In this document: positions 43,580-49,424 of the stretch, piece by piece
Position numbering within the stretch: position 1 is the stretch's first letter
Layout: each line of letters begins with the position of its first letter
Assembly (NCBI GenBank): GCA_937891825.1
Contig: CALAHN010000089.1
Span: 1-64,000, forward strand
Direction of reading: 5' to 3'
DNA length: 64,000 nt
Source: an uncultured Alphaproteobacteria bacterium
GTDB taxonomy: Bacteria; Pseudomonadota; Alphaproteobacteria; Bin95
Program-made: the position numbers and the translations under genes
Notes under the pieces: model-generated
Told to the model about the DNA's origin: nothing
The model's database searches: none
What the model saw: the letters and a program-made list of their open reading frames with translations, nothing else

Positions 43580-44299
43580 ATGGACCTGATTTTCCGGGAA
43601 GACGCCTATATGCGCGAATGTCAGGCGACGGTGGAAAAGGTCGATCAGACAGGCGTCTGGCTGGATCGGACCGTGTTTTATGCCGAGGGCGGCGGCCAAC
43701 CCGGCGACGCCGGCGTCCTGATCGGCGCTGATGGAACGCGCTACCCCGTCATCAACGCGGTCAAGGGCGATGGACCGGACACATCCGTATGCGTTCTGGC
43801 GCCGGACGCTCCCGTTCCAAAGCCCGGCGACGCCGTCACCGCCGAAATCGATTGGGAGCGACGCCACACATTGATGCGGATGCACACGGCGCTGCACCTC
43901 CTCTGCGCCGCCGTTCCGGCCGGCGTCACCGGCGGCCAGGTCGGCCTGGAGAAAAGCCGCCTCGATTTCGATGTCGGCGAAACGACCCTCGTCAAGGAAG
44001 ACATTCAAGCGGCGCTCGACCAGGCGACGGCCACGGGCGCCGGCGTCCAACATCGCTGGATCGACGACGCCGACCTCGATGCGAACCCGGACCTCGTGCG
44101 CACCATGTCGGTCGCGCCGCCGCGCGGCAGCGGTCAGGTCAGGCTGGTCGCGATCGGCGAGGGGGCTGTCGATCTGCAACCGTGCGGCGGGACCCACGTG
44201 CGCAATGTCAGCGAGATCGGACGCATCGTCGTCGGTAAGATCGAGAACAAGGGCAAACGCAATCGTCGGGTCAATGTCAGCTTGGAGACCGTTTCATGA
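43580..44299 (+). CDS. alaX: Alanyl-tRNA editing protein AlaX
   Basis: Free-standing editing enzyme that hydrolyses mischarged Ser-tRNA(Ala) or Gly-tRNA(Ala). The 239-residue protein has FYAEGGGQPGD near the start, the zinc motif HTALH (HxxxH, about residue 102) and the second half CGGTHV (about residue 201), all like the editing domain of AlaRS. Its length with the N-terminal barrel fits the AlaX-M type. A strong GGAGG lies 12 bases upstream. It overlaps sseA by 4 bases, the first pair of a four-gene operon. Confidence 0.92.
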   Translation: MDLIFREDAYMRECQATVEKVDQTGVWLDRTVFYAEGGGQPGDAGVLIGADGTRYPVINAVKGDGPDTSVCVLAPDAPVPKPGDAVTAEIDWERRHTLMRMHTALHLLCAAVPAGVTGGQVGLEKSRLDFDVGETTLVKEDIQAALDQATATGAGVQHRWIDDADLDANPDLVRTMSVAPPRGSGQVRLVAIGEGAVDLQPCGGTHVRNVSEIGRIVVGKIENKGKRNRRVNVSLETVS

Positions 44300-45138
44300 G
44301 CATAGCGCCGCCGCTGGTTTCGACCGCCTGGGTCGCCGAGAATATCCGATCGCCCGGCGTCGTGTTGCTGGACGCCAGCCATCATCTGCCGACCGCCGGG
44401 CGGAACGCCGCGTCGGAATATGTCGCCCAGCATCTCGCCGGCGCGCGTTTCTTCGATATCGACGGCATCTCGGATCATGGAACCGACCTGCCGCATATGC
44501 TGCCGCCCGCGGCAGAGTTCGCGACGAAAGTCGGCGGACTTGGGATCGGCGATGACGATCATGTGGTGCTGTACGACACGGTGGGCACGACCGGCGCCGC
44601 GCGCGTCTGGTGGACCTTTCGGGCGATGGGGCACGACAAGGTCTCGGTCATGGACGGCGGCATGCCGAAATGGCTGGCGGAAGGCCGGGCTGTGACGAAG
44701 GCGCTGCCGGACGTCATGCCGAAGCCGAAGACCGCCCGCCGCGTGGCTGCGCTCGTTCGCTCGCGGGAGGACATGCTGGCAAATATCGAAACAGAAGCCG
44801 AGCAGGTCGTCGACGCCCGCAGCGCCGGGCGCTTCAACGCGACCGAGCCGGAGCCGCGGCCAGGCATGCGGGGCGGGCGTATTCCGAAATCGATGAATGT
44901 GCCGTTCCCGGATGTAATCGCCGAGGACCGCACGTTTCAACCGCCAGAGGTCGTGTTGCGACGCTTCAGGGACGCTGGCGTCGATCTCTCCCGTCCGATC
45001 GCCACGACCTGCGGGTCCGGCGTCACGGCGGCGACCCTGGCCCTGGCGCTTTTCAATGCCGGCATTGAAGATGTCGCGGTCTATGACGGTTCCTGGAGCG
45101 AGTGGGGCTCGCGCCAGGACACGCCGATCGAACCCTGA
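44296..45138 (+). CDS. sseA: 3-mercaptopyruvate sulfurtransferase
   Basis: A 280-residue tandem rhodanese-domain enzyme that transfers sulfur from 3-mercaptopyruvate to cyanide or thiols. The active-site loop ATTCGSGVTAATLAL (Cys about residue 238) has the CGSGVT form specific to mercaptopyruvate sulfurtransferases rather than thiosulfate ones (CRxGxx). The first domain has no catalytic Cys, as usual. Lies between alaX (4-base overlap) and metC (14 bases), linking sulfur amino acid metabolism. Confidence 0.94.
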   Translation: MSIAPPLVSTAWVAENIRSPGVVLLDASHHLPTAGRNAASEYVAQHLAGARFFDIDGISDHGTDLPHMLPPAAEFATKVGGLGIGDDDHVVLYDTVGTTGAARVWWTFRAMGHDKVSVMDGGMPKWLAEGRAVTKALPDVMPKPKTARRVAALVRSREDMLANIETEAEQVVDARSAGRFNATEPEPRPGMRGGRIPKSMNVPFPDVIAEDRTFQPPEVVLRRFRDAGVDLSRPIATTCGSGVTAATLALALFNAGIEDVAVYDGSWSEWGSRQDTPIEP

Positions 45139-45152
45139 ACGAAAGACACTTC

Positions 45153-46331
45153 ATGAAAAGCAAAGTCGGCAAGCGCGCCGAAACCCTGCTGACCCATTCC
45201 GGTCGGCATCCCTTCGATCATTTCGGCACAGTCAACACGCCCGTCTATCGCGCCTCGACGCTGTTGCAGGAGACTGTCGCCGACTACAAGCGCACGAAGG
45301 GCCCGCGCGAGCCGCGCTATGGCCGCCGCGGGACGCCGACGACCTTCACGCTGGAGGACATGATCTCGGACGTCGAAGGGGCGGACGGCTGCATTCTGGC
45401 CTCGTCGGGGCTGAACGCCGTCTCGCTCGCCGTACTGAGCCAGGTCAAGGCCGGCGATCATGTGTTGATGGCGGATTGCGTCTATGGGCCGGCGCGCAAT
45501 CTCGCGAACCATGTGCTGACCCGGATGAATGTCACGACGACGTTCTTCGCGTCCGATATCGGCGCCGGCATCGCGGACCTGTTCCAGCCGAACACCAGGG
45601 TCGTCTACCTGGAGACGCCCGGTTCGCAGACCTTCGACATGCAGGACATCCCGGCGATCGCAAGGGTCGCCAAAGCCAAGGGCGCGGTCGTCATGACCGA
45701 TAACACCTGGGGAACGCCGCTGTATTTCAAGCCATTCGAGCATGGTTGCGATATCTCGATCCACGCGGCGACGAAATATATCGTCGGGCACTCCGATGCG
45801 ATGCTGGGCGCAGTCTCCTATACGGCCGAGATGGAAGAGAGCCTAAGGAACATGGCCGGATGGCTTGGCGTCTATGCCAGTCCGGACGACATTTATTTGG
45901 GCTCGCGGGGCATGCGCACGCTCGCGGTCCGTTTGGCGCAGCATCAGAAAAGCGCGCTCGAGATGGCGGAATTCCTGCTGAGCCGCCGAGAGGTCGACCG
46001 GGTTCTCTACCCGCCCCATCCAAGCTCCGCCGGCCACGACATCTGGAAGCGGGACTTCACCGGCGGCAGCGGCTTGATGGGCGTTGTGCTGAAGCCGGTC
46101 TCCGATGCCGCAGTAGCGTCCATGCTCGATGGCCTTGAGCTTTACGGCATGGGCGCGAGCTGGGGCGGGTTCGAAAGCCTGATCCTGCCCGCCAATCCCT
46201 CAAGCAATCGCACGGCCGCGCCCTGGACCGAACCCGGGCAGCTCCTGCGCATCCATGTCGGGCTGGAACATATCGACGATCTGACAGCCGATCTGGGCGC
46301 TGGCCTGGACCGGTTGCAGATGGCGGACTGA
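45153..46331 (+). CDS. metC: Cystathionine beta-lyase
   Basis: A 392-residue Cys/Met metabolism PLP enzyme that cleaves cystathionine to homocysteine, pyruvate and ammonia. Features: GTVNTPVYRASTLL (MetC type), RYGRRGTPTTFTLE, SSGLNAVSLAVLS, VMTDNTWGTP, and SIHAATKYIVGHSDAMLG with the PLP Lys (about residue 207). The C-terminal MGASWGGFESLILP is typical. Start ATG 45153 is used; an upstream open frame overlaps sseA. Fourth-gene partner lies 12 bases downstream. Confidence 0.93.
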   Translation: MKSKVGKRAETLLTHSGRHPFDHFGTVNTPVYRASTLLQETVADYKRTKGPREPRYGRRGTPTTFTLEDMISDVEGADGCILASSGLNAVSLAVLSQVKAGDHVLMADCVYGPARNLANHVLTRMNVTTTFFASDIGAGIADLFQPNTRVVYLETPGSQTFDMQDIPAIARVAKAKGAVVMTDNTWGTPLYFKPFEHGCDISIHAATKYIVGHSDAMLGAVSYTAEMEESLRNMAGWLGVYASPDDIYLGSRGMRTLAVRLAQHQKSALEMAEFLLSRREVDRVLYPPHPSSAGHDIWKRDFTGGSGLMGVVLKPVSDAAVASMLDGLELYGMGASWGGFESLILPANPSSNRTAAPWTEPGQLLRIHVGLEHIDDLTADLGAGLDRLQMAD

Positions 46332-46343
46332 TCGGCCGGCGGC

Positions 46344-48179
46344 ATGTCCGACGCTGACCTGCAGCGCCTGATCGGGCTCCACAATCGAAGCGACTGGCAG
46401 GCGGCTATCGACCTGGGGGCGCGGCTTGCAGCGAGGCGACCGCTGGACGCCATGATCCCGACCATCGTCGGCGCCGCCGAGGCCGGGCGCGGCCAGTTCG
46501 ATCTGGCGGCCGCGGCGTTCCGGCGCGCCGCCGAACTGGAGCCGGGCAAGGCGGAGCGGCATGCCAATCTAGCGCTCGCCCTGCAGCAAGCAGGCCAGAT
46601 TGAAGCGGCGGTCGCCAGCTTCGATGCGGCGCTGCGCTTGCGCCCAAAAGACCCGGCGGCGCTGAACGGCCTCGGCGCTCTGCTGATCCAGCAGAACCGC
46701 TTCGCCGAAGCCCGGCGGATATTGGGCCAGGCTGTCAGGGCGCAGCCGGATCAGGGCCTGCTCTGGAGCAATATGGCGCTGGCGCTGCGGGGCGACGGCG
46801 CCCTGCAGGAGGCGGAACAGGCGTTTCGGCGCGCGCTGGCGCTTGACCCGGGCGATGTCGAAGCGTTGCACGGCCTGGGCGGCGTTCTGACCGACAGCGG
46901 CCAGACGGCGGCGGCGCTCGCGTGCTTCCAGGCAGCCGTCAAGGCGGCGCCGAGGGACGCGCGGCTGCATCGCAGCGTCGCCATTGTTCTCCGCGACCTT
47001 GGGCGCCTGCGGCAGGCCGCGGCCGCTTATGGCGCGGTTGCGGAGATCGATCCTGACGACGCAGAGGCGCATTATTCCCGCGGCCGGATTCTGAGCGATC
47101 TGGGCGACAAGACGGAAGCGCTGGCCTCTTTTGAAACGGCTGTCGCGCGCAAGCCGGATTATCCGGCCGCGTTAAATGCGCTTGGCGCCGTCCGGATGGA
47201 CTTGGGCCAGACGCAAGCCGCCGCCGAAGCCTTTGTGGCGGCGCTCGCGCTCGTGCGCGATTATCCGCCGGCGCAGAACAATCTCGCTCGGCTCGCGGCG
47301 CGGAAGACGCCGCCGTGGCATATCGCGATGATGAACGACCTGCCGCGGAACGAAGCTTTCCGGCAGGCGATCGAAGCGACGGTCAGGGACGGCGACTTCG
47401 TGCTGGAGATCGGCGCCGGGTCCGGGCTTCTGGCGATGATTGCGGCCGATTCCGGCGCCGGCCAGGTGATCACCTGCGAGGTCGCGCCCGATGTCGCGGC
47501 GTTGGCGGCTGAGATTACCGCTCACAACGGCTTTGAGGGCCGCATCGCCGTGCTGAACAAGCGGTCGACCGCCCTGGAACTGCCGCACGATCTGCCGCGC
47601 CGGGCGGATGTGCTGATCGCAGAGATATTGTCGTCCGAGTTTGTCGGCGAAGGGGTGGTTTCATCGCTGGCGGACGCCCGGCGACGCCTGCTTGCGCCAG
47701 GCGGGCGAATGATCCCGTCGGGCGGCGCCATTATGGCGGGCTTCCTCGGCGACCATCCCGGCGCCCGGTCGATGCTCCATGTCGGCGAAGCCTATGGCTA
47801 TGATCTCTCGGCCTTCAATCGCGCCTCGGCGCGTCGAATCAGCATTCCGGCGACAGTGGAACGCCTCCCGATCATGTCCGACGCGGTCGAGGCATTTCAG
47901 TTCGATTTCTTGGCGCCGACTGACGTCCATGACCGCGAGACGGACTTTGTGCTCGAGGCGACATCCGATGGGCTATGCCTTGGCATCGCGCAATGGAACC
48001 GCGTCGTTCTGACCGACGCCATCGTTTACGAGAACCATCCGGCGCGCGTCCTCTCCCATTGGAGCATCCCGGTCTATCGGTTCGATGCGCCGCTTCGCCT
48101 GACGGCCGGGGATCGGATCCGCGTGTATGGCGCGCTGACGGAGGATAACGTTTGGTTCAGCGCCGAAGCGCCGTCGTAG
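46344..48179 (+). CDS. TPR-repeat protein fused to a PRMT7/9-like methyltransferase
   Basis: A 611-residue fusion. Residues 1 to about 315 hold roughly eight tetratricopeptide repeats. Residues about 322-611 form a SAM-dependent methyltransferase. PWHIAMMNDLPRNEAFRQAIEAT, VLEIGAGSGLLAM (SAM motif I, about 352), CEVAPDVA (acidic ribose residue), NKRSTALEL and AEILSSEFVGEG (about 425-436) closely follow protein arginine methyltransferases of the PRMT7/PRMT9 type. The two Glu residues of the AEILSSEF loop match the 'double-E' loop, and SHWSIPVYRF (about 571) the THW loop. No signal peptide. It ends the alaX-sseA-metC operon. Confidence 0.85.
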   Translation: MSDADLQRLIGLHNRSDWQAAIDLGARLAARRPLDAMIPTIVGAAEAGRGQFDLAAAAFRRAAELEPGKAERHANLALALQQAGQIEAAVASFDAALRLRPKDPAALNGLGALLIQQNRFAEARRILGQAVRAQPDQGLLWSNMALALRGDGALQEAEQAFRRALALDPGDVEALHGLGGVLTDSGQTAAALACFQAAVKAAPRDARLHRSVAIVLRDLGRLRQAAAAYGAVAEIDPDDAEAHYSRGRILSDLGDKTEALASFETAVARKPDYPAALNALGAVRMDLGQTQAAAEAFVAALALVRDYPPAQNNLARLAARKTPPWHIAMMNDLPRNEAFRQAIEATVRDGDFVLEIGAGSGLLAMIAADSGAGQVITCEVAPDVAALAAEITAHNGFEGRIAVLNKRSTALELPHDLPRRADVLIAEILSSEFVGEGVVSSLADARRRLLAPGGRMIPSGGAIMAGFLGDHPGARSMLHVGEAYGYDLSAFNRASARRISIPATVERLPIMSDAVEAFQFDFLAPTDVHDRETDFVLEATSDGLCLGIAQWNRVVLTDAIVYENHPARVLSHWSIPVYRFDAPLRLTAGDRIRVYGALTEDNVWFSAEAPS

Positions 48180-48221: not shown

Positions 48222-49424
48222 ATGACGAGGGCGCGGTCGGTCGCTATTGCGGGGGCGGGCGTCGCGGGCCTCGCCTCGGCGATCCTGCTCAGCCGGGCGG
48301 GCTGGCGGGTTACAGTCTTTGAGCGCTTCGAGCGCGCCCGTCCGGTCGGGTCCGGCCTGATTCTGCAGCCGCCGGGCATGGCGGTGCTGGATGCGCTTGG
48401 CCTTGGCGACCGGGTTCGCGAGAAGGGCGCGCCAATTCGCCGTCTGTTCGGCAAGTCGGCCGGGTCGGACCGGGTCGTGCTTGACGTCCGCTATAGCGCG
48501 CTTGGCGGGGAGGGCGCGCACGGCGTCGGCCTGCATCGCGCGAGTTTGTTTGACGTGCTGCACGGGGCCGCGCTCGAGGAACAGGTCGTCATCGAAACCG
48601 GCAAGGCGGTGCTTGCCTGCCCGCCGCTATCCGGCGGCAGGCGCGAGTTGCATTTCGCCGACGGCGCATCCGCCGGGCCGTTCGATTTGGTGATCGATGC
48701 GCTTGGGTCGCGCTCCGCCTTGCTGTCGTCGCCGGGCCGGCTGCTCGACTATGGGGCGCTCTGGGGGACTGTCCTGTTGCCGGATCGCGCCGATTTTCAG
48801 CAAGCCGCGCTGGAGCAGCGATATCTGGGCGCGCGGCGCATGGTCGGCGTCCTGCCGATCGGCGACGCGCCGGATGCGGCGCGCGGCCGGCACGCGGCAT
48901 TCTTCTGGTCGCTCCGCCATGACCGGTATGACGCCTGGCTTCAGGATGGCCTCGACGCCTGGAAGGCGGAGGTCCAGGCGCTTTGGCCGCTGGCCCGGCA
49001 TTTGGCGTCGCAGTTCGCCGATCCGGCGGCGCTGACCTTCGCGCGGTATGCCCATCGCACCATCGCCAATCCGGCGGAGGCAGGCTTGATCCACATCGGG
49101 GACGCCTGGCGCGCGACAAGCCCGCAATTGGGGCAGGGCGCCAACATGGCCTTGCTCGATGCTTATGCGCTCGCCGGCGCGCTTCGCGACCGGGCGGACC
49201 TTGGCGAAGCGCTGGCCGCTTTCGTCCGCCGCCGACGTCGCCATGTGCTGTTGTATCAGGCGATGAGCTGGCTATTCACGCCGTTCTATCAATCGGACAA
49301 TCGCGTCCTGCCGCTGCTCCGCGACCGGATCGCGGGTCCGCTCGCGAGATTGCCGCCAGCGCAACGCTTTCTGGCCGTCCTCGTGAGCGGGCAGTTGCGC
49401 GGCCCCTTGCGGGGGCTTGAATAG
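48222..49424 (+). CDS. FAD-dependent monooxygenase (UbiH/aromatic hydroxylase type)
   Basis: A 400-residue group A flavoprotein monooxygenase. GAGVAGLASAILLSRAGWRVTVFER is the FAD ADP-binding fold. GLIHIGDAWRATSPQLGQGANMALLDA is the FAD ribityl/GD motif. The middle DG motif, normally VGADGxxSxxR, reads VIDALGSRSALL, so its Gly-Asp order and final Arg are lost. PHBH-like substrate motifs are not clear, so substrate is unknown. The gene is 42 bases after the TPR-methyltransferase gene. Confidence 0.83.
   Translation: MTRARSVAIAGAGVAGLASAILLSRAGWRVTVFERFERARPVGSGLILQPPGMAVLDALGLGDRVREKGAPIRRLFGKSAGSDRVVLDVRYSALGGEGAHGVGLHRASLFDVLHGAALEEQVVIETGKAVLACPPLSGGRRELHFADGASAGPFDLVIDALGSRSALLSSPGRLLDYGALWGTVLLPDRADFQQAALEQRYLGARRMVGVLPIGDAPDAARGRHAAFFWSLRHDRYDAWLQDGLDAWKAEVQALWPLARHLASQFADPAALTFARYAHRTIANPAEAGLIHIGDAWRATSPQLGQGANMALLDAYALAGALRDRADLGEALAAFVRRRRRHVLLYQAMSWLFTPFYQSDNRVLPLLRDRIAGPLARLPPAQRFLAVLVSGQLRGPLRGLE

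Follow-up and report, generated by a model that had tools for sequence, protein, structure and literature searches.

A TPR-fused, PRMT7/PRMT9-like methyltransferase in an uncultured alphaproteobacterium and its bacterial relatives

The stretch of DNA analysed here, referred to as the window, comprises 64,000 nucleotides of a contig (CALAHN010000089.1) from an uncultured alphaproteobacterium. It carries an open reading frame of 611 amino acids that starts with ATG, contains no internal stop and joins a long N-terminal array of tetratricopeptide repeats (TPRs) to a C-terminal methyltransferase module (Table 1). This TPR-PRMT gene follows at a gap of 12 bp three co-directional genes encoding an alanyl-tRNA editing protein (AlaXM), a 3-mercaptopyruvate sulfurtransferase (MST) and a cystathionine beta-lyase (CBL), the last with a start that is likely at 45153, as inferred from homologues. 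The initial annotation took the gene to end an operon of tRNA-editing and sulfur genes; it does follow AlaXM, MST and CBL, but 42 bp further downstream the same strand carries an FAD-dependent monooxygenase-like gene, so that the TPR-PRMT gene need not be the last of the operon. Promoter and terminator scans gave no signal above chance.

Table 1. Genes and protein features at the TPR-PRMT locus (window positions)
Feature	Position	Strand	Basis
AlaXM alanyl-tRNA editing protein, upstream neighbour	43580..44299	+	NCBIfam AlaXM 6e-60, below model cut-off
3-mercaptopyruvate sulfurtransferase (MST), upstream neighbour	44296..45138	+	NCBIfam PRK11493 6.5e-76, above cut-off
Cystathionine beta-lyase (CBL), upstream neighbour	45153..46331	+	TIGR01324 8e-139, above cut-off
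TPR-PRMT gene, 611 aa	46344..48179	+	ORF; family and structure searches
Nine tandem 34-residue TPR units, aa 2-307	46347..47264	+	Pfam TPR_2 4e-38; register; predicted helix pairs; OGT 6e-47
Capping helix and linker, aa 308-321	47265..47306	+	Predicted helix 308-321
WHIAMMND, N-terminal PRMT helix, aa 325-332	47316..47339	+	PRMT9 has WHFIMLND here; W/H in 89/90 relatives (partly a search-seed bias)
SAM-binding motif I VLEIGAGSGLL, aa 353-363	47400..47432	+	G357 and G359 in 90/90
E379, acidic residue at the end of strand beta-2 (contacts the SAM ribose in PRMTs)	47478..47480	+	E in 89/90
Double-E loop EILSSEFVGE, aa 427-436	47622..47651	+	E427 90/90, E436 87/90; aligned with PRMT7 and PRMT9
C-terminal beta-barrel domain, aa 450-607	47691..48164	+	Model pLDDT mostly >90; partial PRMT_C match
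THW-loop equivalent SHW, aa 571-573	48054..48062	+	W573 in 90/90
FAD-dependent monooxygenase-like gene	48222..49424	+	Pfam FAD_binding_3 1e-16

The operon tells little about the function of the gene, since relatives keep the upstream genes without it. The MST-CBL pair is kept in 8 related genomes, most of them with AlaXM also visible in the stretch read, and in none of the 8 does a PRMT gene lie beside the pair; a function based on the operon was thus rejected as weak. Apart from two weak matches, the window neighbours were not found paired with PRMT loci elsewhere. A homologue was also missing from all 4 congeners and all 9 genomes of the same family that were sampled, which indicates that the gene is dispensable; here it is a lineage-specific gene outside the core operon that it follows. 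In two congeners an unrelated gene of about 210 amino acids lies between CBL and a flavin monooxygenase (FMO) gene (L110 3813-4448 and L111 1319-1951), replacing the PRMT and FAD monooxygenase genes; its product has a signal-like N terminus and its DNA is visibly lower in GC.

The TPR-PRMT gene is present in one copy in its own genome, and its third-position GC content (0.80) is the same as that of its neighbours, so that a recent transfer finds no support in composition. A phage origin was likewise rejected (0 matches in 50,697 phage records). Transfer at some time is suggested by the patchy distribution of the family and by the mixed clade that the protein forms with sequences from Prochlorococcus and Pseudohongiella. 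A catalytically dead or decaying gene might also be lineage-specific and absent from all sampled relatives of the genus and family, but the intact reading frame, the retention of all catalytic residues and the neighbour-like third-position GC make this very improbable.

The TPRs of the N-terminal half, described in the initial annotation as an eightfold region, are real and roughly of that number, but their exact 34-residue register gives nine units, followed by a capping helix. They match the TPRs of the O-GlcNAc transferase OGT (6e-47), and OGT and SPINDLY (GT41) also place a long TPR superhelix before a group-transfer enzyme, whereas their catalytic domain and reaction differ from those of the window protein. 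Fusion of TPRs to a PRMT module is recurrent across the family, TPRs being found in about 30 of the 37 members scanned.

The C-terminal half (aa 324-611) forms one PRMT module. When this part alone (293 aa) was searched against the PDB with phmmer, PRMT7 (3e-26) and PRMT9 (6e-26) came first and, among the matches listed, all were PRMTs. A family profile built from 9 sequences matched mouse PRMT7 at 2.8e-86, PRMT9 at 1.8e-73 and 2.9e-71, Trypanosoma brucei PRMT7 (TbPRMT7) at 8e-56 and PRMT3/1 at about 1e-42, and the best 60 of 65 matches were all PRMTs. Judged by sequence comparison, the PRMT7/9 match far exceeds both chance and the similarity common to Rossmann folds, since with the model of PrmA (NCBIfam prmA, TIGR00406), the closest of the ordinary bacterial families, the protein reaches 31 of the 183 bits required. 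The proposal that the module resembles PRMT7 and PRMT9 more than typical bacterial methyltransferases is therefore borne out by PDB sequence and fold matches alike.

The public record points elsewhere, and family members appear as 'tetratricopeptide repeat protein', 'class I SAM-dependent methyltransferase' or '50S ribosomal protein L11 methyltransferase'. The last name would make these proteins PrmA, which methylates lysine in ribosomal protein L11. All of the 37 members do match Pfam PrmA through the SAM-binding core, and several relatives are annotated so, but the match is limited to the Rossmann core (profile positions 153-260 of 296), the PDB and fold matches are PRMTs, and PrmA, with its class I SAM-binding core in common, has neither the PRMT barrel nor the double-E loop. 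PrmA as the family identity is refuted by score and architecture, leaving this reading hardly credible, and the L11 methyltransferase label of the family is apparently a systematic misannotation. Among public plasmid records, relatives H4, H5, H6 and H11 carry this label.

Aligning 90 bacterial members of the family to eukaryotic PRMTs allows the active site to be followed residue by residue. The motifs quoted in the initial annotation are present, namely WHIAMMND, GAGSGLLAM, NKRSTALEL (NKHSTEVTV in PRMT7) and SHW. The double-Glu loop had also been located correctly, but the second Glu quoted, in AEILSSEF, is E432, whereas the catalytic pair is E427-x8-E436 (EILSSEFVGE); the E432 position is also Glu in the aligned PRMT7 loop (ELFDTELIGE), an internal Glu thus being common to both. 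E427 and E436 align with PRMT1, PRMT7 and PRMT9, and both are kept in 87 of the 90 bacterial relatives; before W573 the residues vary among the 90, the Trp itself being constant. These relatives came from a family pattern scan based on a 4-sequence alignment, the 9-sequence alignment being too divergent. As the scan seeds include WH..MMN and GFD.S, the conservation of W325 and H326 is biased; the columns of E427, E436 and W573 are absent from the seeds and their conservation is unbiased. The Pfam PRMT_C model gives the window protein 21.9 bits against a cut-off of 27, and some relatives exceed the cut-off.

A similar picture is given by structure prediction, which the initial annotation had proposed for the Glu pair and the SAM site. 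The AlphaFold model, computed from an input alignment of 37 sequences, is confident (pLDDT 93.3); in it the TPRs form a superhelix, followed by a Rossmann core and a beta-barrel. The best Foldseek match in the PDB is bovine PRMT9 (E 2.7e-21), in an alignment of 434 columns that is longer than the module by itself, followed by TbPRMT7, mouse PRMT7 and PRMT3, and by OGT for the TPRs. Together with the alignment of the Glu pair to PRMT7/9, these fold matches support a predicted PRMT-like double-Glu geometry. In the monomer model, two short helices (472-478 and 489-494) occupy the place where PRMTs carry the dimerization arm. Testable features of sequence and predicted fold thus identify the window protein as a member of the PRMT superfamily.

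The family is bacterial, widespread and patchy. In a survey of 289 alphaproteobacterial genomes drawn evenly, with matches accepted at E 1e-20 or better, 31 (about 11%, this genome included) had a homologue. In the named scan, members came to light in Prochlorococcus, Pseudanabaena, Phormidium, Alpha-, Beta- and Gammaproteobacteria and Magnetococcales, as well as in Streptomyces, Labedaea, Bacteriovoracaceae, Myxococcota and Marinimicrobia. Several members deserve separate mention. In an alphaproteobacterial subclade (L004-L006) the second Glu is lost (ELINVGMLAP), while the first Glu, NHWKQ and a TPR-like N-terminal part are kept; the acceptor has possibly changed in these proteins, and the chemistry of the family may not be uniform. 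A plasmid of Eleftheria terrae (L118, NZ_CP106953.1, 6429-9077) encodes, in a biosynthesis-like region, an 883-aa protein with TPR-like repeats and two PRMT-like modules, the first degenerate and the second with Lys for the second Glu, whose sequence reads as a PRMT9-like tandem layout in a bacterium. Two records titled Asaia bogorensis and Rhodospirillales (L034, L036) contain PRMT genes equal in length and loop, and one of these MAG names is probably wrong.

The window protein and sequences from Prochlorococcus, Pseudohongiella and marine Alphaproteobacteria form a strongly supported clade of 9 rows (100/99), which consists mostly of TPR-fused marine proteins and stands apart from actinobacterial TPR-less members. 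The phylogeny with PRMT7, PRMT9 and bacterial homologues proposed in the initial annotation gave a divided answer. PRMT9 lies outside all bacterial rows (96/73 in one tree and 95/88 in another; the row 'PRMT9N_Xen_8rbk' is bovine PRMT9), and metazoan PRMT7 nests among bacterial rows in one tree (95/91), with the second PRMT7 module left out as a long branch and a small eukaryotic sample taken from PDB alignments. The AU test did not reject bacterial monophyly (p 0.142), and it did not reject a eukaryotic clade of PRMT7, PRMT9 and TbPRMT7 either (p 0.083). An origin of eukaryotic PRMT7 inside the bacterial family is suggestive only, at an AU p of 0.14 and with few eukaryotic rows.

Animal PRMT9 shares N-terminal TPRs followed by a PRMT module, a WH(F/I)xM(L/M)ND start, the double-E loop and the best fold match, but its TPRs number three and its PRMT modules two, in tandem (PMC10984984), against nine TPRs and one module here. 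Orthology with PRMT9 was rejected on this difference in modules and on the branching of PRMT9 outside the bacterial sequences. The monomethylating type III enzyme PRMT7 gives the best profile score and has no TPRs, unlike the window protein, and its metazoan form adds a zinc finger and an inactive second module (PMC8399567). The window protein shows no second module; the nesting of PRMT7 is not significant, and the window protein is not demonstrably a PRMT7 member. TbPRMT7 has a single active module like the window protein and is a good fold match (TM 0.73-0.75 by target), but it is devoid of TPRs and forms a long branch outside the bacterial members.

The gene neighbourhoods of relatives, which are not conserved across the family, suggest more than one use of the module. 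GT41 genes adjoin the PRMT gene in Magnetococcales, where they are TPR-fused and OGT-like, and in Micropepsaceae, and TPR-fused TylF-like or generic methyltransferase genes adjoin it in Pseudohongiella and Prochlorococcus. Such loci keep TPR-docked group-transfer enzymes together, which speaks for a TPR-docked enzyme acting on proteins or peptides; that the TPR-bearing neighbours in some genomes are glycosyltransferases or TylF-like/generic methyltransferases could, on the other hand, mean that glycans or other molecules serve as acceptors. A PRMT-fold methyltransferase moved to a non-arginine acceptor, such as a surface sugar, a different amino acid or a nucleotide, would fit these arrangements, which resemble surface-modification clusters, and the loss of E436 in L004-L006. 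Both Glu and the THW-loop Trp are nevertheless kept in nearly all members, the window protein included, and the window gene is not within any cluster of surface-modification type, so that such a shift of acceptor seems improbable here.

Members without TPRs are found in other surroundings. Haem-oxygenase-like iron oxygenase genes adjoin them in Streptomyces, in Labedaea and on a Pantoea plasmid, and a divergent Streptomyces relative has as neighbours an annotated DUF3865 gene, a cupin gene, an arginine deiminase and an amidinotransferase; these neighbours fit guanidino chemistry across the family. The oxygenases beside TPR-less relatives are presumably of the type of SznF, which has a haem-oxygenase-like domain. 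In the biosynthesis of streptozotocin, SznE/StzE works alongside the oxygenase SznF and methylates the guanidino group of arginine to give N-omega-methyl-L-arginine (PMC11705231), and the saskemycin cluster was found by means of the SznE sequence (PMC12637814). Judged from the oxygenase neighbours and the shared reaction, the TPR-less branch is likely kin of SznE/StzE, suggesting that the same PRMT domain is also used in small-molecule arginine chemistry. The window protein itself might then be a methyltransferase of free L-arginine or a guanidine-bearing metabolite, and its TPRs would serve only for docking to a carrier or a partner enzyme. This main rival is an unlikely reading here, since SznE/StzE acts on free arginine while the window protein has nine TPR units and no such pathway adjacent: a tblastn search of the window detected no haem-oxygenase-like gene, the genes directly beside it do not belong to biosynthesis of this kind, and the clade stands apart from the actinobacterial TPR-less members.

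The Pantoea dispersa plasmid pAHKW2b.3 (L116, NZ_CP082345.1, 5027-11474) carries in order an Ada alkylation-repair gene, genes for an iron-containing redox enzyme and a Rieske protein, the TPR-less PRMT-like methyltransferase gene, an MFS transporter gene and an ATP-grasp gene, a row that looks like an SznE/SznF-type cassette for an arginine-derived natural product with its own repair gene. In Streptomyces sp. NRRL S-118 (L059, 1088-9381), the TPR-less PRMT-like gene lies amid a LodA/haem-oxygenase-like fusion, a radical SAM/SPASM gene and a 2OG-Fe(II) oxygenase gene, possibly a peptide-modifying cluster.

Taken together, the window protein is rather probably a SAM-dependent arginine (guanidino-N) methyltransferase of PRMT7/PRMT9 type that acts on proteins or peptides. 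The Rossmann half, with motif I and E379, would bind SAM, E427 and E436 would keep the guanidinium group of the target arginine in place and in the right orientation, and the barrel and the SHW loop would give the acceptor channel its shape. The product may be mono- or symmetric dimethyl-arginine. Placed before the module, the superhelix of nine TPR units would capture the substrate, in the manner of the OGT TPRs and as PRMT9 TPRs are thought to do, and the single module would probably work as a homodimer, as in single-module PRMTs. What the analysis shows directly is the order of the domains, their homology, the conserved residues and a predicted fold. Confidence in arginine as the acceptor is strong, since both the conserved active site and the arginine-related genes next to TPR-less members point to it. 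Confidence in a proteinaceous substrate is moderate, and the argument for it comes from the TPR superhelix, which is missing from the small-molecule-type members; it is likewise moderate for the homodimer. For TPR-fused members, no substrate, activity or modified protein came to light. Recognition of protein substrates by the TPRs, as had been proposed initially, is a reasonable suggestion, but TPR-less relatives beside oxygenases point to small-molecule use too.

In a search limited to the open-access literature, no direct paper on bacterial PRMTs or arginine methylation in bacteria was found, and the evolutionary origin of PRMT7 has been said in a review to warrant 'further investigation' (PMC8399567). 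That TPR-fused members are distinct from TPR-less ones linked to oxygenases suggests a single guanidine-methylating domain with two uses, on proteins and on small molecules. A wider and doubtful extension, offered tentatively, is that bacteria own genuine protein arginine methylation through widespread TPR-docked, single-module enzymes of PRMT7/9 type, that eukaryotes acquired PRMT7, and perhaps also the joining of TPRs and PRMT seen in PRMT9, from these enzymes, and that TPR-less offshoots were recruited to arginine-derived natural products. A bacterial family with a PRMT active site makes both bacterial arginine methylation and the origin of PRMT7 testable in culturable hosts such as Sphingomonas, Rhizobium and Bradyrhizobium, and the window protein, by its sequence and predicted structure, may reveal protein arginine methylation in bacteria.
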